From Larkinella soli (GTDB taxonomy: Bacteria > Bacteroidota > Bacteroidia > Cytophagales > Spirosomataceae): a stretch of DNA of 64,000 nt. Both the position numbers and the translations under genes were made by a program. Location: contig NZ_QTJY01000027.1 of the NCBI RefSeq assembly GCF_003703975.1, positions 1-64,000 on the forward strand, read 5' to 3'. Shown here in pieces: positions 40,911-54,507 of the stretch. Within the stretch, counting starts at the first letter, position 1; every line of letters begins with the position of its first letter. The notes beneath the pieces are model-generated. The model ran no database searches, was not told where the DNA came from, and worked only from the letters and a program-made list of their open reading frames with translations.

Positions 40911-41921
40911 TCAGCGGTTGAACACCACCAGCGCCCCTTTGCGGGAAACCTGATTTTTGGTATACGACACCCCGTCCCGTTTTTTGCCCTCCGCATCCAG
41001 CAGCGAGATGGCTCCGCCGTCGTTTCCGAGCTGCGGCCCTCCACCGTTGAGCGGCACCACCAGCAACTCGCCGGCCTGAACGGTTTGCGGACCGAACCGC
41101 TGTTTCCGTTCCATCCGGTCGGCCAGCGCCCAGTCTTTCAATTCGACCGGAGCAACGCCGGCGTTCAGGAGATAGACTTTTTCCGACTCTCCGGCCCGGG
41201 CGTTCACCAGAGCCGCGACGATGTACAGGTCGCGCGTTTGCTGATCGGTCCAGGTACCGCCGTCGGTGATGGCATTGCCCTGCTCGTCGGTCTGGAACGA
41301 CTGCGACTGGAACGCCAGAAACAGGGCTACCCAGCGGTTGGTCTGTGCAAAGTGCAGCAGCATGCCGCCGTCCTGCCAGATGCCGTTGTCTTTTTTAAAT
41401 TCCCCGGCATTGCCCTGGTTCATGTGAATATCGTGGATGCCCGAACCGGGTTCGAACCCGAAATACTGATCGGGTTTATTCTCTTCCGGTCCCCAGCGCT
41501 CCCCCCAGGCATAAATCAGCACGTCGGGCTGGTCGACGGCTTTTTTGATGTAAAAATCCAGCTTCTCGTTGAGGTCGTTGTCCGGCCCTTCGACGTCGAA
41601 CGGCAGCGGCTTCATGGCCCGGACGTCGAACAGGTTCCGACGAACGAAGTCCAGGGCCAGGTCGTTGGGCCGACTGGGTACCGGCGTGAAGCCGATGGGC
41701 AGGTCCGCCTGCACGAGCCGGTCGGTCAGTTCGTGCCGGAAATCGTCATCGAAAAAATAAAGGAGTTCCGAAGGCGCCTGCTTCGACTTGACATTCACGG
41801 CGATGCGGTGTTGTTGCCCGGCGTCGTCCTGCAACAGAATCTGGTAGTGCGGTTTGGTTTTCGTGGCCAGTTTTTTATCCACGACCCGCGCTTTGAGAAC
41901 GAAATAGTTTTTGAGTGCCAT
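40911..41921 (-). CDS. DUF2278 family protein with lamin-tail-like C-terminus
   Basis: A 336-residue protein matching the YukJ/DUF2278 outline: MALKNYFVLKARVVDKK at the start, YAWGERWGPEENKPDQYFGF in the middle, and GIHDIHMNQGNAGEFKKDNG followed by WQDGGMLLHF. The last 100 residues (VYLLNAGVAPVELKDWALAD to the C-terminus) read as a lamin-tail-like Ig domain with LGNDGGAISLLDAEG. No signal peptide is seen, so it is probably cytoplasmic. Function of the family is unknown. The frame extends to 41975, but ATG 41921 matches the family start. It lies 128 bases after the isomerase gene and may be a separate unit. Confidence 0.85.
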   Translation of the reverse strand: MALKNYFVLKARVVDKKLATKTKPHYQILLQDDAGQQHRIAVNVKSKQAPSELLYFFDDDFRHELTDRLVQADLPIGFTPVPSRPNDLALDFVRRNLFDVRAMKPLPFDVEGPDNDLNEKLDFYIKKAVDQPDVLIYAWGERWGPEENKPDQYFGFEPGSGIHDIHMNQGNAGEFKKDNGIWQDGGMLLHFAQTNRWVALFLAFQSQSFQTDEQGNAITDGGTWTDQQTRDLYIVAALVNARAGESEKVYLLNAGVAPVELKDWALADRMERKQRFGPQTVQAGELLVVPLNGGGPQLGNDGGAISLLDAEGKKRDGVSYTKNQVSRKGALVVFNR

Positions 41922-42049
41922 ATCATTGAGGGAGCAGGATTCTCTCCGGGTGAGGCCGGAAAAATTTCGTACCAAAGAACGGCAGGATCGACCGGCCCGT
42001 CAATGGGAAATGGCCCTTTTCATGTTAAGAAATTACGCGGGTCGGCCTC

Positions 42050-42949
42050 TCATTTTACGTCGATGGCCCGGTACGCTTTCAGGGCGGCTTCAGCACCTTC
42101 TTTGCCGGGTTTGCTCAGGCGGTGTTCCAGCCCGACGAAGCCCCGGTAGCCTTTGGCATACAGATGCCGCAGGACATTCGGATAGTTGATTTCCCCGGAG
42201 GTGGGTTCATACCGCCCCGGCGTGTCGCCGATCTGCACGTAACCGATCTCATCCCAGGCATAATCCAGCGTGTTGAGCAGGTTTCCCTCCTGGATTTGAA
42301 CGTGATAGACGTCGAACAGCACCTTCACCGACGGCCGGCCCACGGCTTTCGCCAGCGCGTAAGCCTGTGGGATGGTATGCAGAAACATGCCCGGATGATC
42401 GACGCGGTGGTTCATGCTCTCCATGACCATCACGAGGCCGTGCGGTTCGTAGAGGTCGGCAATCCGTTTGAGCAGCTCGACCGCATTCGCCATCTGAAAA
42501 TCCCAGGGCAGCCGCGGGTCGGCCATACCCAGCACGTTGTGAATGAATTTGGTATTCATCCGTTTGGCAATTTCCACCGACGCCCGCACGTCGTCCAGCA
42601 CCTTCTCCCGCAGCGCGGTATCCCGCCCGGCAAAGGTAACGTCTTTGAAAGTCAGCGTGCCGACGAACTGACCGAACTCCATGCCCAGCTGCTGAACGGT
42701 CCGGCTAATGCGCTCCTGCTCGGCCACGGGGCGGTTTTTCAGCATCGTACTCTCCCAGGCCCGGAAGCCCTGATCCCGGCCCCATTTGATCTGCTCGACC
42801 GGGTCCGCTCCCGACAGGGCGCTGAAAATACCGAACTCAGGAGAAAATTTGGTCCGGAACGGTTCCGGGTTGTCGGCCGGAAGCGGGCGGGAAGCCAGGA
42901 CGGCGGCCCCGGAAAAAAGGCTGTGGCGGAGAAAGGTGCGACGTTCCAT
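42050..42949 (-). CDS. Tat-exported TIM-barrel sugar isomerase/epimerase-like protein
   Basis: A 299-residue AP-endonuclease-2/xylose-isomerase-like barrel. The leader MERRTFLRHSLFSGAAV has the twin-arginine pattern with RRxFL, then a weakly hydrophobic stretch to about residue 25. The barrel shows GFRAWESTMLKNRPVAEQER, HGLVMVMESMN, VKVLFDVYHVQIQEGN and IGYVQIGDTPGRYEP. Glu-152 region, Asp in LFDVYH, and His/Glu in the last segments are the expected metal ligands. The closest families are hydroxypyruvate isomerases and 3-keto-sugar epimerases. Substrate unknown. It follows the large haem protein gene by 24 bases. Confidence 0.85.
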   Translation of the reverse strand: MERRTFLRHSLFSGAAVLASRPLPADNPEPFRTKFSPEFGIFSALSGADPVEQIKWGRDQGFRAWESTMLKNRPVAEQERISRTVQQLGMEFGQFVGTLTFKDVTFAGRDTALREKVLDDVRASVEIAKRMNTKFIHNVLGMADPRLPWDFQMANAVELLKRIADLYEPHGLVMVMESMNHRVDHPGMFLHTIPQAYALAKAVGRPSVKVLFDVYHVQIQEGNLLNTLDYAWDEIGYVQIGDTPGRYEPTSGEINYPNVLRHLYAKGYRGFVGLEHRLSKPGKEGAEAALKAYRAIDVK

Positions 42950-42973
42950 GACGGAGAGCCGGGTTTAGGGTGA

Positions 42974-45900
42974 TCAGCGAAGAATGGCCTGGTCGGTGGC
43001 AGGGTCCTGGTCCTGACCGAGCAGGAACGCCATCAGGTCCGACAGCTCCTGGGTCGTCAGCAGCTGGTCGAGACCCTGGGGCATCAGCGAGGTGTCCTGA
43101 AGCTCCATCGAAGTAACTTCACCACGCGGAACCCGGACCGACGTTTGGGGTGAAGTTCCCAGCACGATGGCCGACGGACTGTTCTCCTGCACGATACCGA
43201 CGTATTCGGCCTGCCGGGTTCTGACGCGGTACGGTTCATACTCCCTCACAAAGCTGACGCTTGGGTAGACGATTGCCTCCATCAGGTCGTGAGCCGATCG
43301 GTCGCGCTGGATGGAGGTCAGGTCCGGCCCCAGCTTCCCGCCGTCGGCGCCCACCTTGTGACAGGTGCCGCAAACCGCTTTCCCGAAGAACAACACCCGG
43401 CCCCGTTCGAGGTCCCCTTTGACGAGGCTTTTCTGGAGGGCCTGAAGCCGCTGAAGCCGGTTGGCCTGCGCCTGCCGGAGTTTATCCAGAAGCCGGTCCA
43501 CGGCGGGCCGGACAGCATCCGAATAGCCGGCGAAGGTGGTTTTGAGAGCTTCCTCCGAAAAACTATCGAGGGTCGGCGAGCCGGCCAGGGCCGTAGCGAG
43601 GGCCGTGCCGACCTCGTCGGAGTGGGCTCCGCGGAAAGCGGGCAGCAGGCGCGGCAGCAGGAAGGCGTCGGCTTTCGGCAGGTAGTTCCGGCTCAGTTCC
43701 GCCAGTTGTGACTCCGAAAGCCGCCCCTGCGTCAGCACCCCGGCCGCCTGCTGGCGAATACCGGCTTCTTTGCCGTTGCGCAGCTGGTCGAACAGAAAGG
43801 CAAACCGGTAATCCGTCAGTTCCGGCTGCGCTTTCAGGAGTGCGCCCAGCGACTGTAGACGCAAACCTGCCGGATTCCTGTCATCGTCAGCCAGCCGGCT
43901 GAGGGGCCCGGCCAGCGAAGTAATGTTCCGAAGACCGACCAGTTCGATGGCCCGGGCCTTTACTTCCGGCTCGTTGTCCGGGGCAAGCTGCCGCCCGACA
44001 GGTTCCGTCCAGACTGCCGGGAATTTTTCACCCGGAAGGCGGGACATCGCATTCAGCAAAAACAGTTTCCGCTCCTTCGACGCCCCCTCCAGCTGCTCGG
44101 CCATGAACTGCTGCATCTCCGGGTTTCCGCTGAACGACACCAGCACGTCGCCGTAGAGTTTTTCTTCGTCGGCCGTCAGGGCCGCGCCCTGAAACCGCTT
44201 TTTCAGGAAGGCCGCCATATCGGGTGCCCAGTCCGGATGGTGCGAAGCCACCCAGAGGGCCGTAGCCTGAAGGTTTCTATCCGTACCCGCCAGGAACGGC
44301 GTCAGCCGGTCGGCCCGTAGTGGGGAATCTTCCATCTGGTCGAGGGCGATCAGAGCGGCTTCCCGGACTTTCGGGGAGGAATGAGCCAGGGCGGCTTCCA
44401 CTTTCTGCGGCTGGTTTAGCGTGATAAGCGAATAAATGATCCCATGCCGCACAAAGCGGTCGTCGGTTTTTTCCGCGGCCGCCAGCAGAGCCGTCACCGC
44501 CCGGGCATCACCGATCTGGCCGAGCGCCGTAGCAGCCTGCCGCCGGACGGCGGGATCATCTTTCAGGATCAGTTCCGACAACCGGCCGACGGCCGCCTGA
44601 TCGTGCGCCAGGCCCAGCGACCGGGCCGCAGCCACCCGCACCGATACCTCCGCATCGTTCAGCCCCGAACGGACCGAGGCCATTGCCGGACCGCTTCCGA
44701 TGCGGTACAGCGCAAAAACCGCTTTGGTGCGAGCCTCCGCCGAAGGCGACCGGCGAAGCACCTCCGTCAGTGCGACCATGGCGGCCGGCCCCAGGTCGAC
44801 CAGCCGCCCGACGGCCCGGTCGCGGACAAACGGCCGGGCGTCGGTCAGGTACGAAATGGTTTTGGCGGTATTGAGCGTACGCCAGTCGATGCGGTTGCCG
44901 TAAGGGTCGCTCGGTTTGGCGGCTCCGGTCCGGCGAACGCGGTAGATGCTGCCCTGCAACTCCGGTTTCGACACCTGCGAGAGCGGGCAGCCTTCGATGA
45001 ACCAGCCGCCGGTTTCGACCACCAGCAGGCTTCCGTCGGCATCTTCCAGCACGTCGGTCGGGTGGAAGTCTTCGTTGCCGGTGGCGAAAAACACCTGATC
45101 TTCCGTGCGGAAAGAGCCACCTTCGCGAATCAGTTTATGCCGCAGCACCCGGTGCGTATTGAACTGGGCGCTGAACAGATTATCCCGAAAATCCTCGCCC
45201 AGCGCCGTGTGCCGATACCGCCCGATGCCGGAGGGCGCCACGCGGGAAAATTTAGATACCACCGGCATCAGATCGCCGGTCCGGGTCAGGCTGTCGAAGC
45301 CGATGTTGCGGTGCGGTTTGGGATACACACCGCCTTCGGTCCAATAGACGAGGGCGTCGCGCTGGCCGGCCTGCGGGTCGGTAAAATAGGTTTCGGTGCC
45401 GATCGGTTCGCCGGCTTCCGTGAAGGTCAGTTCGACGGGATTGTTCATGCCCCCGGCCGCAATCCATTCCAGCCCCGAGCCGTCGGGCCGTACGCGCCAG
45501 ATGCGGGCCGTCCGGCCTTTCAGTTGCTTCCCTTCTTTCGTCCGGACGTTGAAACCGGTAATGGCGCTGGTCATGTAGAGCCAGCCGTCCGGCCCGGCAA
45601 ACGGCCCGATCAGACTGTTGGCGTTCACGTTCAGCGTCCAGCCCGTCAGCAGCACCTCGCGCCGGTCGGCTACCCCGTCGCCGTCCGTATCCGTAAATTT
45701 GAGCAGATCGGGCGCGGAGGTGGCATAGAGGCTGCCTTTATAGAAAACCCCGCCCTGCGGAAACCCGACTTTGTCGGCGTAGATGGTGCTTTTATCGTAG
45801 ACGCCGTCGCCGTTGGTATCCTGAAGCAGGTTGATCCGAAACTGCGGATTGTCCAGGGCGTCTTTCGTCTTTTTGTAGACATGGCCGATGGATTCGAACA

Positions 45901-46096
45901 CGAACATCCGCCCGGTTTCATCGAGGGTGGCAAACATCGGATAATCGATCAGGTCCGGGCCGGCGGCCACCTCCACCGAATACCCCTCCGGCACCCGGAT
46001 GTCGACCGGCTTTACCGGTTTTCCGCTTTTCCGCGGAACATAAGCCAACAGGAAGGCAAGCGTCAGAAGCAGAAGCGGGGTTTTCGGAAAGGTCAT
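42974..46096 (-). CDS. PVC-type haem-binding protein: propeller, HEAT repeats, cytochrome c
   Basis: A 1040-residue exported protein with a Sec-type signal peptide. The N-terminal 360 residues form a PQQ/sugar-dehydrogenase-like beta-propeller with Asp-rich DTNGDGVYDKST and TDTDGDGVADRRE calcium-type loops. HEAT repeats follow (about 400-880; EVSVRVAAARSLGLAHDQAA), then a cytochrome c domain with CGTCH at about residues 909-913, LGPDLTSIQRDRS, and a Met in TSLMPQGLDQLL as a likely distal ligand. Such proteins are common in Planctomycetes, Verrucomicrobia and Cytophagales and probably accept electrons in sugar or alcohol oxidation, though none is well characterised. ATG 46096 gives the signal peptide; the frame opens 14 codons earlier. 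Confidence 0.88.
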   Translation of the reverse strand: MTFPKTPLLLLTLAFLLAYVPRKSGKPVKPVDIRVPEGYSVEVAAGPDLIDYPMFATLDETGRMFVFESIGHVYKKTKDALDNPQFRINLLQDTNGDGVYDKSTIYADKVGFPQGGVFYKGSLYATSAPDLLKFTDTDGDGVADRREVLLTGWTLNVNANSLIGPFAGPDGWLYMTSAITGFNVRTKEGKQLKGRTARIWRVRPDGSGLEWIAAGGMNNPVELTFTEAGEPIGTETYFTDPQAGQRDALVYWTEGGVYPKPHRNIGFDSLTRTGDLMPVVSKFSRVAPSGIGRYRHTALGEDFRDNLFSAQFNTHRVLRHKLIREGGSFRTEDQVFFATGNEDFHPTDVLEDADGSLLVVETGGWFIEGCPLSQVSKPELQGSIYRVRRTGAAKPSDPYGNRIDWRTLNTAKTISYLTDARPFVRDRAVGRLVDLGPAAMVALTEVLRRSPSAEARTKAVFALYRIGSGPAMASVRSGLNDAEVSVRVAAARSLGLAHDQAAVGRLSELILKDDPAVRRQAATALGQIGDARAVTALLAAAEKTDDRFVRHGIIYSLITLNQPQKVEAALAHSSPKVREAALIALDQMEDSPLRADRLTPFLAGTDRNLQATALWVASHHPDWAPDMAAFLKKRFQGAALTADEEKLYGDVLVSFSGNPEMQQFMAEQLEGASKERKLFLLNAMSRLPGEKFPAVWTEPVGRQLAPDNEPEVKARAIELVGLRNITSLAGPLSRLADDDRNPAGLRLQSLGALLKAQPELTDYRFAFLFDQLRNGKEAGIRQQAAGVLTQGRLSESQLAELSRNYLPKADAFLLPRLLPAFRGAHSDEVGTALATALAGSPTLDSFSEEALKTTFAGYSDAVRPAVDRLLDKLRQAQANRLQRLQALQKSLVKGDLERGRVLFFGKAVCGTCHKVGADGGKLGPDLTSIQRDRSAHDLMEAIVYPSVSFVREYEPYRVRTRQAEYVGIVQENSPSAIVLGTSPQTSVRVPRGEVTSMELQDTSLMPQGLDQLLTTQELSDLMAFLLGQDQDPATDQAILR

Positions 46097-46190
46097 GGCG
46101 GCTCGAACGATTAGGTCAGGAAACGGCAACCGACGCAACGGCCGAAGGATGCCGTAGCTAAAGATAATCAGAAGATTGCGGAATTCTGTC

Positions 46191-47447
46191 CTAACTTATC
46201 CGAACCAGGTCCTGAATCTCCCGGCCTTCGTGTTCGAAGCGGGCGAGCGTATAAACCGTGCCGTCAGCCCCGACGGCGATGGAGTTGACGTAGGTCGGGC
46301 GGCCGCCGTCCGGATAGAAAACCGGGCCGTGGTCGCGGTAGGTGCGGGTAGGAAGGTGAAAGGTGACGAGGTGAAGGTTTTCGAGTCCTTTGGCCGCGCC
46401 TTTGGCGATCTGCTCCTCCCCTTTCAGGCGCTTTCCGTCCACATAAATCGGCCCGCCCGTCAGGTAGTATATGGTTTCGCCGTCCGGCCCCGGCTGAAAA
46501 CCGAGGTAGCCGTAACTGAACTGGTCGAACATCCCGCTCCGGCGCGAAGGCTCGGAGGTGATTCGCTCGACCAGCTCGACGGTTTCCTGTCGTGGGTCGA
46601 ACCGGAACAGGTACCCGGAATTGCCGTGGACGCCGTAGGCCACCTGCTCGGGTGCATACCAGAAGATTTTGCGCCAGTTGTAGCCCATGCTGCCGGGGTG
46701 CGTCGGATCGTATTTCCCAAAATAATCGAGCCGCAGATCGACGCCTTCCAGTTTCTGCAAAGAGCCGGTTTCGGGTCGATACCGGAAAATGTCGCCTTCC
46801 GAAGTGGAATAATACACCGCCCCGTCGCGCGGATCGACCACCATCGAGCGGCACAGAACGCGGTAGTCGGCCCCCGGCGTGCCGGCTTCACCCCGCGCCG
46901 ACACCGGCCCCCGGTTTATCAGTTTACCGTTGCGGTAATGCAGAAAATAACCGGTCGGCCAGGTGATGCCGTATAAGTCACCGCGCTCGCGGTCCATCGT
47001 CAGGGTCAGGATGCCTTCCCCGTCCGGAGCCGTCGCCAGATTTTCGAACTGACCGGTCTGGAGATCATACGACAGGAAGTGGCCGCCCGGATACAGCGCC
47101 CGGCCGCCCGGGGCCTCCTGCGGCATCCGTTCCATGCCGTCGATGATCTGGTACACCCCGATGTGGGTGGCGAAATACAGCCTGCCCCGGCTTTCGTAAA
47201 ACCGCACGTGGCTTTTCCCCTGCGGGATGGCGTTGGCGCCTGATTCTCCGCAGATTTCGGTCAGGTCGGCCAGGCATTCGGTGCGGTCGGTCGGCGGGTC
47301 GTACCGGTACATCCGGCCGCTTTCCTCATACGACTCGGAGCAGAGAACGTAATAAATTTTACCGTCGGAAGCGGCCGTGATGGCGTTGTAGGTGTCGTGC
47401 GCCCGGTCGAAGCCGGAGTAATAGGGAATGGCGGCAAGTGAGGGCAT
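46191..47447 (-). CDS. Beta-propeller protein of unknown function
   Basis: A 418-residue protein made of repeated four-strand blades, visible as recurring DGKIYYV, GRLYFATH, GDLYGIT, GAVYYST and GTVYTLA strand endings, giving about six to seven blades. There is no signal peptide, unlike most neighbours, so it should be cytoplasmic unless a start was missed. No catalytic motif was recognised; the family resembles YVTN-like quinoprotein propellers found beside ceramidase-like genes. It starts four bases after the ceramidase-like stop and so is tightly coupled to it. A 94-base gap separates it from the haem protein gene. Confidence 0.72.
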   Translation of the reverse strand: MPSLAAIPYYSGFDRAHDTYNAITAASDGKIYYVLCSESYEESGRMYRYDPPTDRTECLADLTEICGESGANAIPQGKSHVRFYESRGRLYFATHIGVYQIIDGMERMPQEAPGGRALYPGGHFLSYDLQTGQFENLATAPDGEGILTLTMDRERGDLYGITWPTGYFLHYRNGKLINRGPVSARGEAGTPGADYRVLCRSMVVDPRDGAVYYSTSEGDIFRYRPETGSLQKLEGVDLRLDYFGKYDPTHPGSMGYNWRKIFWYAPEQVAYGVHGNSGYLFRFDPRQETVELVERITSEPSRRSGMFDQFSYGYLGFQPGPDGETIYYLTGGPIYVDGKRLKGEEQIAKGAAKGLENLHLVTFHLPTRTYRDHGPVFYPDGGRPTYVNSIAVGADGTVYTLARFEHEGREIQDLVRIS

Positions 47448-47451
47448 CGGG

Positions 47452-48822
47452 TCAGGGTTTAGGAATACCGGCCTGTCCGGCCAGCTCGGTTACGGCCTGC
47501 AGAATGGCGGTTTCGATGGACGCGTCCCAGACGCTGGGCAGGCCGTAGACCATCTGGGACGATGCCCCCTCGTAGCCGCCCTCCTGCAAAACCGTATGCG
47601 TCGGAATATACCCCATGACGTCGTTCGAATACCCCATCACGAACCACTCCCGCCCGAACCGCCGTTTCAGCTCGACGGCATAGCCGACGACCACCTCCCC
47701 GCCGAGGCTCAGAAGCGGCTGGTCGCCCAGCTTCCAGAGCTGCACCGGATACGGATACGAGGTCAGAACGGGTTTGCCCTGCTTCTTTTCGGTCAGCATC
47801 CGGGCGGCCCAGCGTTTCATGTAACTCTCCCCTTCGGTCGTCATTTTGGCCAATTCGGATTCCGACGGCGGAGGGGCCAGTCTGAGGTCTACTTCGGTGT
47901 AGGCGGTGGTCAGGCCGGCGGGCAGTTCGCGCATGGCGTCCTCCAGCACCCGGTCCACGGCGGCCGCCAGTTCCCGACCGTACTGCCGGGCCAACGGCAC
48001 CGTCCGGCGGGGCAGCGGGTTCTGATCCCCGCCCGCGCCCTGAAAAAACAGGGCCGTGGCGCCCGGATGCCCCTTTTCCAACTCCAGCTGGGCAAAGCCG
48101 ACGTAATCGCCCGACCACTGGTAGGTATCCAGAACGGTGGGATGGCAGGCATAGCCGAAGACGACGGCTTTCAGTCCGCCCTTTGCATCCTCCACCCGAA
48201 TCACCGGAACGGCGTAGTCGTTGGGCCCTTTCAGTTCCGACTGGTCACGCAGGACGGCTTCGCGGTTGTTGCGCCGGTTCACCTGAAAACGGGTGACGCC
48301 GTTGGCGGCAAACAGCCGGACGGGTTCCAGATTTTTCACGGCCTGCCCGATCAGCGCTACCACCTGGTCTTCCAGCCGGCGGGTGTAGTCGGCCACTTTG
48401 GCGAGTTCGGCCGGTTCGAGGGGATAAATATCGTAAAGGGCATCCTTCAGCACCGGGCCGGAGTGAGTGTGCGAGCTGCTCAGAATGACCTGCGCCTTCG
48501 ACAGGTTCTGGCCGGTTCTGAGCCGCTCCCGAATCCGGTCGGAGAGTCCTTTCGGAAAGCCCAGCAGGTCGGTCGTGACCAGCACCGCCCGCTTGCCGGT
48601 TTCGTCTTCCAGCGCCAGCGCCTTGGCCCAGAGGTCGTGCAGTTTGCCTTCGGCGGGGTGGTTGCGGGCGGCATAGCCGGCCATCCACATGGGCTGTTCG
48701 GGCGTGATCACCACGCGGGCCACCCCGGCCTTCCAGCCTCCGGCCGGTTTCTGCGCCCAGGCCGGTAGCAGCAGAATCATCCAGAAGCAAAGAATACCGG
48801 CCGTCGTCAACCTTCTGCTCAT
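47452..48822 (-). CDS. Exported neutral/alkaline ceramidase-like hydrolase
   Basis: A 456-residue protein with a Sec-type signal peptide (to about LLPAWAQ) and the neutral ceramidase N-terminal-domain pattern: GVARVVITPEQPMWMAGYAARNHPAEG, LVTTDLLGFPKGL, SSSHTHSGPV (the paired His of the zinc site) and FGYACHPTVL. Classic ceramidases are over 600 residues and have a C-terminal Ig-like domain; that part is missing here. Short relatives are widespread in Planctomycetes and Cytophagales with unknown substrates, so ceramide is not assumed. The start overlaps the stop of the aminotransferase gene by four bases (ATGA). Confidence 0.82.
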   Translation of the reverse strand: MSRRLTTAGILCFWMILLLPAWAQKPAGGWKAGVARVVITPEQPMWMAGYAARNHPAEGKLHDLWAKALALEDETGKRAVLVTTDLLGFPKGLSDRIRERLRTGQNLSKAQVILSSSHTHSGPVLKDALYDIYPLEPAELAKVADYTRRLEDQVVALIGQAVKNLEPVRLFAANGVTRFQVNRRNNREAVLRDQSELKGPNDYAVPVIRVEDAKGGLKAVVFGYACHPTVLDTYQWSGDYVGFAQLELEKGHPGATALFFQGAGGDQNPLPRRTVPLARQYGRELAAAVDRVLEDAMRELPAGLTTAYTEVDLRLAPPPSESELAKMTTEGESYMKRWAARMLTEKKQGKPVLTSYPYPVQLWKLGDQPLLSLGGEVVVGYAVELKRRFGREWFVMGYSNDVMGYIPTHTVLQEGGYEGASSQMVYGLPSVWDASIETAILQAVTELAGQAGIPKP

Positions 48823-50246
48823 TTCAGCGTCAGCAGTTTTTCGGCGTTGGCGCGGACTTTTTCGATGGCCCCGGCAATTTCGTCCATGTCCTGACGGCTG
48901 CCGAGCAGCAGATTCTGAGTCAGCCAGACGGCTTCCTCGTTACAGATGCGCTCGTTTTCCGGGCAGCGATTCCGCTCGACATAGCTTTTGAAATCGAGCA
49001 TTTCCTTCGGATAGATTTTGCGGAAGTTCTTTGACTGAAACGCATCGTTCAGATACGGCATGTTGTTCAGCGTCGCATAACCTTTCTGGCAGGGTACGCC
49101 CTCGGCGCTGAGGGCCTTGATGAACACCTCGCGGGGCAGGCCCTTGAAGGCGTCTTTCTTATACCGAAACGCGAACAGGTGAAAAGCCGCCCGGGTCACG
49201 TCGTCGTAGAGCCGGTAGGGCACGATGCCGGGAATGTCCTTGATTTTCGATTTGAGGTAAGCCGCGTTTTCGTTGCGGGTGGTGGTCTGGGCGTCCAGCC
49301 GCTTGAGTTGTGCCAGCCCGATGGCGGCCTGATATTCGGTCAGGCGGAGTTTGGTGCCCTGATACGGGGTGCCGAGGCTGACCGACACCGAACCGGCGGA
49401 GCCGTAGGCATTACCGAAGTTCTGATACGAGAAACAACGATCCATGAATTCGCTGTTGTCGCTGACCACCGCCCCGGCCTCCCCGATGGCGAGGTTCTTG
49501 GAATTCTGGAAGCTGAAGCAGCCGGCGTCGCCGAGCGTCCCGACCTTGCGGTGGTTGATCTCGGCCAGATGGGCCTGGCAGGCATCCTCGATCACCACCA
49601 GTTTGTGTTTTCGGGCAATGGGCAGAATCCGTGTCATGTCGGCCGGCAGACCCAGAATATGCACCGGGATAATGGCTTTGGTGCGGGGCGTAATTTTGGC
49701 TTCGATTTTCGCCGGATCGATCTGGAAGGTGTTGGGGTCGATGTCCACGAAAACCGGCATGGCGCCCGTCGCCAATACCGCCGAAACGGTGGCAATGAAG
49801 GTATAGGGCGGAATCAGCACCTCGTCGCCTCCCCGGATGTCGAACTGGGCCAGGGAAGTGATCAGGGCGTTGGTGCCGTTGACGACCGCCAGACAGCGTT
49901 TGGACCCCAGCGTGGCGGCCCATTGCTGCTCGAACTCGCTGACCACGGCCGCCCGCGACCAGACCCCGCTCCGCATCACCTCCAGCAGCCGCTTCTCGTC
50001 GGTTTCCGGAATCCACTGCGGCCAGATGGGCCATTCCTTCGTTCGGACGGGCCGCCCGCCCATCAGGGCCGGGGCGTCGGCGACGGAAAAAGCCGGTGCG
50101 GCCGGGCGGGGGTCGTCCAGGACCGTGAATGCGCTTTTTTCGGCCGCATTTGCCAGGAGGGAGGGCGTCAGCACGGCGCCGAGGCCCGTCAGGGAATTTC
50201 TTCGGAGAAATTCGCGTCTTGAAAAATTCGGTTCCGGGGTCTTCAT
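48819..50246 (-). CDS. DegT/DnrJ/EryC1/StrS-type aminotransferase with twin-arginine leader
   Basis: A 475-residue PLP-dependent sugar aminotransferase-like protein. The leader FSRREFLRRNSLTGLGAVLT is a textbook Tat signal, about 35 residues, so a folded enzyme would be exported. The core (about 90-470) has the fold-type-I pattern: PPYTFIATVSAVLATGA, VVIEDACQAHLAE, and CFSFQNSKNLAIGEAGAVVS, in which the Lys would form the Schiff base with PLP. DegT proteins normally act in the cytoplasm on nucleotide-linked keto sugars; a Tat leader on one is unusual. It shares a stop-start overlap with the ceramidase-like gene. Aminotransferase activity is a family inference. Confidence 0.87.
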   Translation of the reverse strand: MKTPEPNFSRREFLRRNSLTGLGAVLTPSLLANAAEKSAFTVLDDPRPAAPAFSVADAPALMGGRPVRTKEWPIWPQWIPETDEKRLLEVMRSGVWSRAAVVSEFEQQWAATLGSKRCLAVVNGTNALITSLAQFDIRGGDEVLIPPYTFIATVSAVLATGAMPVFVDIDPNTFQIDPAKIEAKITPRTKAIIPVHILGLPADMTRILPIARKHKLVVIEDACQAHLAEINHRKVGTLGDAGCFSFQNSKNLAIGEAGAVVSDNSEFMDRCFSYQNFGNAYGSAGSVSVSLGTPYQGTKLRLTEYQAAIGLAQLKRLDAQTTTRNENAAYLKSKIKDIPGIVPYRLYDDVTRAAFHLFAFRYKKDAFKGLPREVFIKALSAEGVPCQKGYATLNNMPYLNDAFQSKNFRKIYPKEMLDFKSYVERNRCPENERICNEEAVWLTQNLLLGSRQDMDEIAGAIEKVRANAEKLLTLK

Positions 50247-50284
50247 GGTCTTGGGGAGGAATCGTCCAGGTGTCGAAATGCAGA

Positions 50285-50306
50285 ATAAAAAGCCGCCGGG
50301 GCGGGC
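50285..50306 (-). terminator. Possible weak terminator after the Rossmann oxidoreductase gene
   Basis: On the minus strand the GC-rich segment GCCCGCCCCGGCGGC (50306-50292), able to form a short CCGC/GCGG stem, is followed by TTTTTATT directly after the stop at 50310. The stem is only four base pairs, so efficiency is doubtful. If real it splits the run of periplasmic genes into two units. Confidence 0.3.
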
Positions 50307-50309
50307 AGA

Positions 50310-50990
50310 CTACTCTTTCGCCAGCCGGACGATGTCCCTGACTTCCAGAATCTTCTTCTCGTATCCCCGGCTAACGACATGAATCATCGCCAGCCCCAGT
50401 TCGGCAAGCGTCGAAACAAAGCCGGGAAACAGCGACCGCATGGCCGGGTACAGCCAGGTAATGTATTTATACAGCGACAGCGTGTTTTTCAGCCCTTTGG
50501 TCGGCTGCATGAACCCCGGCCGGAAGGCGTAAACCGCCCGGATCGGCAGTCGGAACAGGTCATTCTCGGTTTTCCCCTTCACCCGCGCCCACATGGAGCG
50601 GCCCTGTTCGGTGCTGTCGGTTCCGGCCCCCGAGACGTAGCAAAACACCAGGTCGGGATTGAGCCGGCTGAGCGTTTGGGCGAAGTGCATCGTCAGCGTA
50701 TAGGTTTTCTGCCGGTACTCGTCCTCTTTCATACCGACCGACGACACGCCGAGGCAGAAGAAGCAGGCATTATAGTCCTTTAGGCGGCCTTCAATGGGGG
50801 AAATGTCGAAAAAGTCGCCGTGAATCACCTCCTGGAGTTTCGGGTGCGTCAGGCCAAGGGGCCGGCGGTTGACGACCAGCACGGCTTCGACGTCGGGGTG
50901 TTGCAGGCATTCGTGCAGTACCCCCTCGCCTACCATGCCGGTCGCCCCGGTGATGATGGCCCGGATGCGGGCCGGTTTGCGGGTTTCCAA
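50310..50990 (-). CDS. NAD(P)-binding Rossmann-fold oxidoreductase
   Basis: A 226-residue short protein of the atypical SDR type: IRAIITGATGMVGEGVLHECL near residue 9 gives the G-x-x-G-x-x-G dinucleotide motif, and FFCLGVSSVG and VFCYVSGAGTDST follow. A YxxxK-like catalytic pair is not evident; MWARVKGKTEN may supply a Lys. There is no signal peptide, so it is probably cytoplasmic. Similar proteins are labelled epimerase or nucleoside-diphosphate-sugar epimerase without a known substrate. It starts four bases after the GMC oxidoreductase stop, suggesting cotranscription. Confidence 0.8.
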   Translation of the reverse strand: METRKPARIRAIITGATGMVGEGVLHECLQHPDVEAVLVVNRRPLGLTHPKLQEVIHGDFFDISPIEGRLKDYNACFFCLGVSSVGMKEDEYRQKTYTLTMHFAQTLSRLNPDLVFCYVSGAGTDSTEQGRSMWARVKGKTENDLFRLPIRAVYAFRPGFMQPTKGLKNTLSLYKYITWLYPAMRSLFPGFVSTLAELGLAMIHVVSRGYEKKILEVRDIVRLAKE

Positions 50991-50994
50991 AACC

Positions 50995-52713
50995 TCAGAG
51001 GTTTTTCTTCTTCAGTTCGCCCACGGCGTGGTTGGCCGCGCGGGCCGTGATCGCCATGAAGGTCAGCGAGGGGTTCTGCGTCGAGGTCGAGGTCATGCAG
51101 GCGCCGTCCGTCACGAACACGTTTTTGCAGTTATGGAACTGGTTCCACTTGTTGAGCAGGGAGGTTTTGGGGTCTTTGCCCATCCGGACACCGCCCATCT
51201 CGTGAATGTCCAGCCCCGGTGCCTTGTCGGGCCGGTCGTGAGTCTGGACGTTGATAAACCCGGCCACGGTCAGCATTTCGGTCATCTGCTCGTGGAAATC
51301 GCGGATCATCTTCTCGTCGTTGTCGTCGTAAGCCACCGAAATCCGCAGCTGTGGGATGCCCCAGGCATCGGTCAGGGCCGGGTCGAGGGCCACGTAGTTG
51401 CTTTCTTTCGGGATGGTTTCGCCCATCATGTGCGAGCTGACCCGCCAGTTGCCCAGATTCCGGGCCATCAGGCTGTTTTTCAGGTCTTCACCGATGGCCG
51501 CCCGGTCGATGTCGATGCCCCGGCTGGAACCGAAGCCGGCCGCGTAGCCCCGGAGGAAGTCGGTTTCCTGCTTCTGTACGTTGCGGAAGCGCGGAATATA
51601 ACTGCTGTTCGGACGGATGCCTTCCGGCATGGTATCGCGGAAGCCTTCATGCTCGGCCGAGATGGTTGTCCGGAAGTTGTGGAAGGCCACGTATTTGCCC
51701 AGCAGGCCGTTGTCGTTGCCCAGGCCGTTCGGGAAGCGGTTCGATTTGGAATTGAGCAGGATCAGGTTGGTATTCAGGCAGGCGGCATTCAGGAAAATGA
51801 CTTTGGCGTAGTATTCGGTCATCTCCTTCGTGTGGGCGTCGATCACCCGCACGCCGGTCGCCTTGCCTTTCTTCTCGTCGAAAATGATCGAATGCACCAC
51901 CGAATCCGGCCGGAGGGACATTTTGCCGGTTTTGGCGGCCCAGGGCAGCGTCGAGGAGTTACTGCTGAAATAACCGCCGTAGGGGCAGCCCCGCTGGCAG
52001 AGCGAGCGGTTCTGGCACTGGCCCCGGCCCTGCTGGAGGTGAATCGGCTGCGGCTTGGTCAGGTGGGCGCAGCGCCCGATGATGATCGGGCGGGTGTTGT
52101 TGTACCGCTTCGCCATCTCCTGGCTGAAGTGCTTCTCGACACACGACATCTCGTGGGGCGGCAGAAACTCGCCGTCGGGCAGTTGGGGCAGCCCGTCCTT
52201 ATTCCCGGAAATACCGGCAAACTTCTCCACGTAGCTGTACCAGGGCGCAATATCGGCGTAGCGGATGGGCCAGTCGACGGCGAAGCCGTCGCGGGCGGGG
52301 CCGTCGAAGTCGAAGTCCGACCACCGCTGCGTGCCGCGGGCCCACATCAGCGACTTACCGCCGACCTGGTAGCCCCGAATCCAGTCGAAGGGCTTCTCCT
52401 GCACGTAGGGATGTTCGTTGTCTTTGACGAAAAAGTGGGCGGCATCCTCGCGGAAGGCATAACACCGGCTGGCAATGGGGTTGGCGTCGGTCAGTTCTTT
52501 CGGCAGGTTCCCCAGATGCGGAAACTCCCAGGGCTGCATCATGGTGGTGGGGTAATCCGTGACGTGTTTGACGTCACGGCCCCGCTCCAGGACCAGCGTA
52601 CGCAGGCCCGCACCGGTCAGTTCTTTCGCGGCCCAGCCGCCACTGATACCGGAGCCGACCACGATGGCGTCGAACGTCCGGTCCTTTATGGAATCGATAT
52701 TCAGGAAAGACAT
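50995..52713 (-). CDS. GMC-family FAD oxidoreductase, gluconate/glucoside dehydrogenase-like large subunit
   Basis: A 572-residue flavoprotein: FDAIVVGSGISGGWAAKEL near residue 13 is the FAD dinucleotide motif, and the C-terminal GMC signature lies in VRMGKDPKTSLLNKWNQFHN and TDGACMTSTSTQNPSLTF. Near residue 220, the CQNRSLCQRGC stretch places three Cys as C-x5-C-x3-C, close to the spacing of the 3Fe-4S ligands in bacterial FAD-glucose dehydrogenases. There is no signal peptide; related large subunits are exported with the Tat-leadered small subunit, which is the next gene upstream. Likely substrates are sugars or sugar acids. Confidence 0.88.
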   Translation of the reverse strand: MSFLNIDSIKDRTFDAIVVGSGISGGWAAKELTGAGLRTLVLERGRDVKHVTDYPTTMMQPWEFPHLGNLPKELTDANPIASRCYAFREDAAHFFVKDNEHPYVQEKPFDWIRGYQVGGKSLMWARGTQRWSDFDFDGPARDGFAVDWPIRYADIAPWYSYVEKFAGISGNKDGLPQLPDGEFLPPHEMSCVEKHFSQEMAKRYNNTRPIIIGRCAHLTKPQPIHLQQGRGQCQNRSLCQRGCPYGGYFSSNSSTLPWAAKTGKMSLRPDSVVHSIIFDEKKGKATGVRVIDAHTKEMTEYYAKVIFLNAACLNTNLILLNSKSNRFPNGLGNDNGLLGKYVAFHNFRTTISAEHEGFRDTMPEGIRPNSSYIPRFRNVQKQETDFLRGYAAGFGSSRGIDIDRAAIGEDLKNSLMARNLGNWRVSSHMMGETIPKESNYVALDPALTDAWGIPQLRISVAYDDNDEKMIRDFHEQMTEMLTVAGFINVQTHDRPDKAPGLDIHEMGGVRMGKDPKTSLLNKWNQFHNCKNVFVTDGACMTSTSTQNPSLTFMAITARAANHAVGELKKKNL

Positions 52714-52766
52714 GAAGGAAAAATGAGGGTCTAAAATGGGTTGTTGAGTTCAGATCCGGAAGCCGG

Positions 52767-53285
52767 TTATTGTTTGACCGGAACGCAGCCGTGGTAGAAA
52801 CCGGGCGCCATGTTGAATTTCGCCACGTTGGTCAGGTAGTATTCCGAGTTGGTATACCCCTGAATCGTCAGCCCTTTGGTCATGCCGACGAACTGCCTGC
52901 CGATCTGATCTTCGGAAGCCGCCATGCGGGTCAGAACATCCTTGCGCTGGGCGGGGTCGCAACTCATAAACGCTTTGGTATACAACTGCGTAGCGGCCTG
53001 GTCGGTGAGTTGAAGGCCCTGTTTGATGGTCGTCTGGGCCGGTTCGCCGTAGCAATCCTGAATCATCCGCAATACGAACTGATGCACTTTAAGCGACTTT
53101 GCCCCCGGGGTGGTCGTCTCCGGGATGTAGGTTTCAACGATTTCGGCGAGCAGGTCTTCTTCAGAAGGGGTAACTCCGGTGGTTTTTCCGAGTGATTCAG
53201 GTGTCCAGCCGCTGGCCCATGACGGAAGACTAACCAGTCCTCCCATGGCCACCGCCAGGCTTTTAAGAGCAGAACGACGTTGCAT
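52767..53285 (-). CDS. Gluconate 2-dehydrogenase subunit 3-family protein with Tat leader
   Basis: A 172-residue small subunit. MQRRSALKSLAVAMGGLVSL is a twin-arginine leader, and the body holds the family pattern LLAEIVETYIPETTTPGAKSL near residue 48 and, at the end, YYLTNVAKFNMAPGFYHGCVP. Such subunits carry the Tat signal for a signal-less GMC partner, here encoded 53 bases downstream. ATG 53285 was chosen over the frame opening at 53309. The upstream gap to the inverted-repeat element is AT-rich, and only a one-mismatch -7 box (TATCTTCG near 53330) was seen. Confidence 0.87.
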   Translation of the reverse strand: MQRRSALKSLAVAMGGLVSLPSWASGWTPESLGKTTGVTPSEEDLLAEIVETYIPETTTPGAKSLKVHQFVLRMIQDCYGEPAQTTIKQGLQLTDQAATQLYTKAFMSCDPAQRKDVLTRMAASEDQIGRQFVGMTKGLTIQGYTNSEYYLTNVAKFNMAPGFYHGCVPVKQ

Positions 53286-53502: not shown

Positions 53503-54387
<885 letters not shown>

Positions 54388-54507
54388 AAAGGGGTTCGGA
54401 TTAAGTGTTTCGGAATAACCAATGATAACACTTTTTCCGTTGCCACCGCTGCTCCGACCGGCTGCCAATTGGCAGCCGGAGCGATTTTCAGGTCGGTCTT
54501 CCTGCCT

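Follow-up and report, generated by a model that had tools for sequence, protein, structure and literature searches.

A conserved DegT aminotransferase, amidase and beta-propeller module in Larkinella soli, with a candidate role in keto/amino-sugar interconversion outside the cytoplasm

A usual cytoplasmic route to 3-amino sugars pairs a Gfo/Idh/MocA dehydrogenase with a DegT aminotransferase; NtdC/NtdA is one case, and GnnA/GnnB, which act in the cytoplasm on UDP-GlcNAc in a biosynthetic pathway for lipid A, is another. One report describes GnnA and GnnB as making GlcN3N (PMC3342949). Here, we analyse a 64,000-nucleotide stretch of DNA from Larkinella soli (contig NZ_QTJY01000027.1, positions 1 to 64,000; hereafter the window), in which eight open reading frames, all on the minus strand and spanning 53285 down to 42050, include genes for a DegT-type aminotransferase (DegT), a ceramidase-like zinc amidase (Cer) and an unclassified beta-propeller (Prop). 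DegT, Cer and Prop form a conserved module, and we judge the chances to be a little better than even that this is a periplasmic module for keto/amino-sugar interconversion, one of three neighbouring modules.

The resemblance to GnnA/GnnB lies in the pairing of the same two enzyme families and would extend to the C3 oxidation and transamination of a GlcNAc-type sugar. GnnA/GnnB is cytoplasmic, whereas 53 of 54 distinct orthologues of the window's DegT that score above 500 bits carry, within their first 75 residues, the twin-arginine (RR) motif of a predicted leader for twin-arginine translocation (Tat). A GfoA gene lies within 8 kb of DegT in 24 of 46 loci, though not in the window, the GfoA gene of this genome being on another contig. 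Since Tat-type leaders are accompanied by neighbours resembling NagP, NagA and NagB, the substrate would be a free sugar, and the direction would probably be the reverse of that of GnnA/GnnB.

A second report describes PtaA and PvdN of pseudomonads, both pyridoxal phosphate (PLP) enzymes, as exported by Tat in folded form with their cofactor (PMC6206403). They share the Tat leader and the PLP lysine with DegT, but their target is the side chain of the glutamate in pyoverdine, whereas here a member of the DegT family lies in sugar loci. The BT_2158-type glycoside 3-dehydrogenase pathway, which breaks down glycans by a 3-keto route, likewise has a Tat-leadered Gfo/Idh/MocA protein in Bacteroidota loci, and GfoB, one of the Gfo proteins found near DegT in relatives, resembles the corresponding model, NF058561, but falls far below its cut-off. 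To our knowledge, that pathway has no DegT, ceramidase-like or propeller gene, and we know DegT-class sugar aminotransferases only as cytoplasmic enzymes. Among the matches listed from the open literature, a scope that leaves aside most subscription journals, no description of the DegT-Cer-Prop module was found; its parts belong to known families, Prop excepted, and their combination and location are new to us.

The eight genes are as follows:

52767..53285, minus strand, subunit 3: Tat-leadered gluconate 2-dehydrogenase subunit 3, ATG start (PF13618, E 5e-31)
50995..52713, minus strand, GMC: GMC flavoprotein with a pyranose-oxidase-like C-terminus (PF05199/PF00732, GMC_oxred_N/C)
50310..50990, minus strand, SDR: short Rossmann NAD(P)-binding protein (PF01370 Epimerase, 24.1 against a 20.9-bit cut-off)
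48819..50246, minus strand, DegT: Tat-leadered DegT/DnrJ/EryC1/StrS-type PLP aminotransferase (PF01041, E 4e-97)
47452..48822, minus strand, Cer: Zn amidase of the neutral-ceramidase superfamily (PF04734 Ceramidase_alk, E 6e-17)
46191..47447, minus strand, Prop: beta-propeller of 418 amino acids, by predicted model, of no named family
42974..46096, minus strand, CytHEAT: exported propeller, HEAT and c-type haem (CxxCH) protein (DUF7133, HEAT, Cytochrom_C, TIGR02604)
42050..42949, minus strand, TIM: Tat-leadered xylose-isomerase-like barrel of the hydroxypyruvate isomerase/keto-sugar epimerase type (PF01261 AP_endonuc_2, E 2e-33)

Seven of the eight proteins match Pfam above cut-off. An earlier, sequence-only reading of this DNA had described the same eight genes, and its family assignments are borne out save for Prop, which reaches no Pfam or NCBIfam cut-off and whose predicted model is nevertheless the propeller that had been proposed. 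The three Tat-type leaders that it reported are real, with RR motifs read directly in subunit 3 (MQRRSALKSL), DegT (FSRREFLRRN) and TIM (MERRTFLRHS), and so is the tight spacing: the DegT and Cer genes overlap by 4 bases, and gaps of 4 bases separate GMC from SDR and Cer from Prop. SDR and DegT are 63 bases apart, and Prop is 94 bases from the ATG of CytHEAT; the CytHEAT frame is open from TTG 46138, and ATG 46096 is the more likely start.

Conservation of the DegT-Cer-Prop module

A scan of genome contigs with the window's DegT yielded 68 DegT loci, with all of which ten window proteins were compared by tblastn. Cer and Prop adjoin DegT in Dyadobacter, Larkinella, Arsenicibacter, Adhaeribacter, Telluribacter, Rudanella, Parapedobacter, Chitinophaga and others; CytHEAT has matches of about 30% in some of the 68 loci, and GMC, subunit 3, SDR and TIM have none in any. 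For neighbour counts, 45 of these loci (the weaker DegT matches being dropped) were combined with 19 loci fetched separately, and those with a DegT match above 400 bits were kept; removal of 5 duplicates left 56 distinct loci, 46 of which have flanks of 4 kb or more on each side. Neighbours of DegT were counted in these 46, within 8 kb and on the DegT strand, and neighbours of GMC over the whole locus on either strand, in 20 wide control regions, one 14 kb long and the other 19 each 19.8 kb; every stretch took the label of whichever representative scored best.

Cer lies near DegT in 36 of the 46 loci and Prop in 38. Across the 56 distinct loci, Cer is found no more than 400 bases downstream of DegT in 37, all three genes are contiguous in 29, and Prop directly follows DegT in 7. 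In a phylum-wide sample of 296 Bacteroidota genomes (cut-offs of E<=1e-130 for DegT and E<=1e-60 for both Prop and Cer), each of the three genes occurs in five genomes, and they are the same five: the window's own (G000), included by construction, two of its family and two from further away. The naive chance that one pair of sets coincides in this way (4 of 295) is 3.2e-9, a figure that overstates the evidence because it ignores kinship. Even so, G218 and G227 have DegT and Prop on separate contigs, and in G246 the two are split at contig ends. A close-kin sample of 59 genomes, which counts the window's own, contains DegT (E<=1e-100) in 17, Prop in 14, all of them with DegT, and Cer in 21, covering all 17 DegT genomes. 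DegT, Cer and Prop are a conserved module.

The sequence-only reading had joined all eight genes into one periplasmic system, in which GMC and subunit 3 would make a 3-keto-sugar, DegT would aminate it, TIM would epimerise it and electrons would pass to the cytochrome. The common strand and short gaps are in keeping with such a system, as are the families, which suit keto-sugar chemistry; 13 of the 46 loci have a TIGR02604 cytochrome no more than 8 kb from DegT, and a Kiritimatiellae locus pairs DegT with a Tat-type TIM barrel. However, GMC, subunit 3 and SDR were found near DegT in none of the 46 loci, nor were TIM and CytHEAT, whose zeros cover close homologues only because of the labelling by best representative. 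Conversely, DegT, Cer, Prop, SDR and TIM were found in none of the 20 wide GMC loci, all of which contain subunit 3. SDR, with no match in either set of relatives' loci, is hence conserved beside neither of its neighbours. Furthermore, GMC homologues (E<=1e-150) occur in 42 of the 59 close-kin genomes, the window's own included, against 17 for DegT, and a terminator-like site (50308-50293) lies between SDR and DegT, though such sites occur at chance frequency here. A search of relatives for conserved co-occurrence of the eight families found no examined locus that holds all of them, and the GMC pair and the aminotransferase set stand apart in 20/20 GMC and 46/46 DegT loci. Thus the eight genes are three separate neighbouring sets and not one system; the eight-gene pathway was rejected on these neighbourhood counts, and we consider it very improbable. 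Its underlying idea, that a keto-sugar made outside the cytoplasm is then aminated or deaminated, is supported for the DegT gene but not for GMC and subunit 3 as the oxidiser.

The aminotransferase, the amidase and the propeller

The closest named relatives of DegT are in Arsenicibacter, Spirosoma, Telluribacter and Larkinella. The sole orthologue above 500 bits without an RR motif starts at a contig end, and the motif recurs in five of eight weaker orthologues. All 61 aligned sequences, same-species duplicates included, have the PLP lysine, Lys250, and 60 of them have Asp221. Both the leader and the catalytic lysine recur across orthologues and so cannot be put down to chance, and the leader motif predicts a DegT-type aminotransferase exported by Tat. 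The solved chains nearest in sequence are 8gyh, scyllo-inosose aminotransferases and an 8-amino-octulosonate transaminase, all of which rank ahead of most nucleotide-sugar enzymes; they fit a free ketone substrate, without amounting to proof of one. A secreted-looking protein of about 400 amino acids and of the Rid type (the imine deaminase family) is encoded directly before DegT in seven loci (L032, L033, L035, L036, L037, L044 and L049), where genes for a PVC cytochrome and a HiPIP-like protein precede it.

Cer has a leader that, judged by eye, is of the Sec type. Its residues H118, H227, E376 and Y405, invariant in 27 orthologues, align in two HMMER stretches with positions 97, 204, 411 and 448 of 2zws, those of the Zn ligands His97, His204, Glu411 and Tyr448 of the Pseudomonas ceramidase. 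Neutral ceramidase and Cer have all four ligand positions in common but differ in length (646 against 456 amino acids), and Cer is far from reaching the cut-off of the ceramidase equivalog NF041649 (26.7 against 1200 bits); in a sugar setting, ceramide is an unlikely substrate. In two Bacteroidota metagenome-assembled genomes, Cer and Prop are fused in one open reading frame (L019:9671-12352, 893 amino acids; L027:3335-6019, 894 amino acids), and the junction of the L019 fusion was read in sequence. Such fusions suggest that Prop works with an exported amidase.

The superfamily of Cer is named after lipid amidases, and DegT, Cer and Prop might instead act on a non-sugar N-acyl compound, such as N-acyl amino acids or a lipoamino acid, with the Nag neighbours serving in the use of the released sugar. 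Genes of the creatininase, DapA and 3-hydroxyacyl-CoA-dehydrogenase types near some copies are in line with this. The structures nearest DegT, however, are mostly named sugar or cyclitol aminotransferases, and the best models for GfoB are sugar or inositol dehydrogenases, including a weaker UDP-GlcNAc 3-dehydrogenase, all of them below cut-off; we regard a non-sugar substrate as distinctly improbable. These creatininase, DapA-type and 3-hydroxyacyl-CoA-dehydrogenase-type genes recur, together with small Rid genes, near the DegT operon of L007, L017, L127 and L142, being assigned by Pfam in L017 (creatininase), L127 (DapA-type) and L142 (3-hydroxyacyl-CoA-dehydrogenase-type and small Rid) and by first residues in the other loci.

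Ten Prop orthologues scanned singly gave no Pfam match above cut-off, and a further 17 members, for which E-values only were considered, gave a best Pfam E-value of 0.00025. The weak Pfam matches that do appear are to propeller repeats and strictosidine-synthase-like families. The AlphaFold2 model is a beta-propeller with a mean pLDDT of 85.3, for which the 50 Foldseek matches listed are all generic propellers, with a best TM-score to the query of 0.55, and a profile search of solved structures returned designed Kelch-like propellers at best.

Partner genes and the direction of the reaction

Within 8 kb of DegT, the 46 loci hold GfoA in 24, GfoB in 21 and GfoC in 13, a NagP-like MFS permease in 20, NagA in 18 and NagB in 20, and also LacI (20), SusC (20), HiPIP (12), AmidoH (5) and Rid (5) proteins; GfoA is directly upstream of DegT in 22 of the 56 distinct loci. 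The names of the Gfo and Nag partners rest on scans of representative proteins, of which that for nagA scores 306.8 bits, above its cut-off. Two kinds of oxidoreductase recur beside DegT, namely Gfo/Idh/MocA proteins (GfoA in 24/46 loci) and PVC-type cytochromes (13/46). GfoA was found in nine of the 296 Bacteroidota genomes, among them all five that hold the trio. In the window's own genome, GfoA, GfoB, an MFS gene, NagA and an ROK gene lie together on contig C2 at about 368.6-374.8 kb (L139), and both Gfo proteins carry RR leaders; this GfoA-GfoB-MFS-NagA set is the probable partner of the window's DegT module.

From the Tat-type leaders on Gfo and DegT, and from amino-sugar genes in about half of the loci, we infer periplasmic keto/amino-sugar interconversion. 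DegT would be loaded with PLP, exported folded through Tat and, in the periplasm, exchange an amino for a keto group on a free rather than nucleotide-bound sugar. The keto group would be made or consumed by the Tat-leadered dehydrogenases GfoA and GfoB, whose genes come before or after DegT in about half of the loci in relatives and, in this genome, are found on contig C2. Cer would remove or add the N-acyl group, and Prop may be a substrate binder or may leave the cytoplasm together with DegT; the NagP-like permease would then import the resulting hexosamine for degradation by NagA and NagB. As far as the sequences indicate, the trio probably interchanges the amino and keto groups of sugars in a compartment outside the cytoplasm, and the neighbouring genes make a catabolic direction probable. 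The sequences show the gene content, the leader motifs and the catalytic residues, together with the co-occurrence of the genes and their neighbourhoods in relatives; from there we infer the function of the leaders, the substrate class, the C3 position, the direction and the role of Prop.

A narrower version, which we think possible but rather doubtful, is the periplasmic breakdown of 3-amino sugars, for example the GlcN3N of lipid A or N-acylated relatives, with the GnnA/GnnB chemistry run backwards outside the cytoplasm. Cer would strip an amide-linked acyl group, DegT would turn the amine into a ketone, Rid would clear imines in some species, and an exported Gfo would reduce the ketone; the hexosamine would enter by the NagP-like permease for NagA and NagB, and Prop would be a regular part.

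The opposite direction has precedents in the known Gfo and DegT pairs NtdC/NtdA, GnnA/GnnB and WlbA/WlbC, all biosynthetic, and the solved chains nearest DegT include cyclitol aminotransferases that use free ketones. DegT would in that case aminate a periplasmic 3-keto-sugar to give a secreted or envelope amino sugar, kanosamine-like, while Cer would trim or transfer an acyl group. However, the SusC, NagA, NagB and NagP-like neighbours counted above look catabolic, and there are LacI/ROK regulators and GH20 and GH109-type genes near relatives' sets, the last two in the operon of L127. Biosynthesis by this module is, in our view, unlikely.

Several observations weigh against periplasmic interconversion, the reading that we favour. 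The NagP-like and nagB representatives are below their cut-offs (398.5 against 625 and 152.8 against 236.9 bits), and the L018 homologue of GfoB scores 142 bits against the 750 required by NF058561, the BT_2158 glycoside 3-dehydrogenase model. No Gfo or Nag gene lies beside DegT in the window, and within 8 kb GfoA is absent from 22 and NagA from 28 of the 46 DegT loci. GfoA occurs without DegT in four of the 296 genomes and a second Gfo/Nag set in G012 has no DegT within the 18 kb fetched, so that the Gfo/Nag set is separable too. Three genomes of the same genus (G004, G006 and G008) keep DegT without Prop, and the link within the trio is therefore strong but not absolute; Cer is found without DegT in G002, G003, G007 and G040, and the loci from Planctomycetota, Verrucomicrobia and Kiritimatiellae (L039, L043, L045 and L031) have other neighbours. 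Finally, no export signal or hydrophobic leader is visible in Prop, either in the window protein or in the listed orthologues. GMC proteins are believed to hitch-hike out with subunit 3, and our guess, by analogy, is that Prop may be carried out together with DegT. Within the genus, the pattern resembles stepwise loss, with DegT and Cer kept in G004, G006 and G008 and Cer only in G002, G003 and G007.

The GMC-subunit 3 and CytHEAT-TIM sets

At 50995-53285, a PF13618 subunit with a Tat-type leader is encoded directly beside a GMC flavoprotein. The pair is like those of the gluconate 2-dehydrogenase type but has no adjoining cytochrome c subunit, the flanking genes encoding the Rossmann protein and a PIG-L protein, and GMC scores 61.6 bits against TIGR02462, below cut-off. 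Among 30 loci of about 4.7 kb, the window's own included, subunit 3 adjoins GMC in 29, and SDR and DegT are near GMC in the window's locus only. The 20 control regions contain GfoB-type genes in three, SusC in two and a PVC cytochrome in one; the other counted partner families are at zero. GMC and subunit 3 are a module of their own, independent of the DegT set, and would together form a periplasmic GMC dehydrogenase of the ordinary kind. Immediately before subunit 3, on the same strand, is a gene for a PIG-L deacetylase with a hydrophobic N-terminal stretch (53503-54468), homologues of which were found in 0/46 DegT and 0/20 GMC loci of relatives. Promoter and terminator scans of the stretch gave matches at chance level only; near-matches to the consensus of a Bacteroidota -7 element lie upstream of subunit 3 and of CytHEAT without a -33 partner.

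CytHEAT passes the cut-offs of TIGR02604 (170.6 against 122.2 bits) and TIGR02603, and barely that of Cytochrom_C (21.7 against 21.3 bits). TIM matches the solved chains 3ngf (E 2e-23) and 6wn6, a 3-keto-D-glucoside 4-epimerase (E 1e-9), and reaches none of the NCBIfam equivalog cut-offs among nine models listed (best 126.9 against 353.45 bits). In the close-kin sample, with the window's genome counted, TIM homologues (E<=1e-70) occur in six genomes and CytHEAT homologues (E<=1e-150) in eight. In G040, which belongs to a different family and has no DegT at E<=1e-100, homologues of TIM (78%) and CytHEAT (67%) share one cluster, and on this one clear case we take CytHEAT and TIM as a separate unit, which may pair an exported dehydrogenase-like cytochrome with a keto-sugar isomerase. 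Between the two homologues in that cluster (L182, 5426-14787) sits a DMFA2_C-domain protein, and the surrounding genes include one of the GlcNAc 2-epimerase type and one of the enolase superfamily; perhaps the cluster is an exported sugar-acid pathway of its own. Downstream of TIM in the window is a DUF2278 protein (40911-41975) with a C-terminal lamin-tail-like match slightly below cut-off.

CytHEAT and TIM as core partners of DegT were rejected on the 0/46 count of close homologues, a count that leaves out distant TIM barrels (as in L031) and cytochromes scoring better against the shorter PVC-cytochrome representative. The adjacency of CytHEAT to Prop is itself weak evidence, because TIGR02604 occurs in 26 matched stretches of the window's genome. 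It is the shorter TIGR02604-type cytochrome that accounts for the 13 DegT loci mentioned above. A TIGR02604 protein directly follows Prop in seven of the 56 loci (L007, L017, L021, L023, L030, L127 and L135), and is then followed by a HiPIP-like protein in four of the seven. This slot is thus repeatedly filled, and CytHEAT may be a species-specific substitute in it, perhaps recruited as an electron acceptor. In the Kiritimatiellae locus L031, the gene after DegT encodes a PF01261 TIM barrel that carries an RR leader, and the locus also holds an aldo/keto reductase that weakly matches TAT_signal.

In summary, genes that adjoin in one genome can make separate modules look like a single plausible pathway. 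If periplasmic keto/amino-sugar interconversion by DegT, Cer and Prop is true, amino-sugar chemistry can happen before import, and a conserved DegT with a predicted Tat leader, an exported Zn amidase and amino-sugar uptake genes would together provide a testable setting for an unnamed propeller family.

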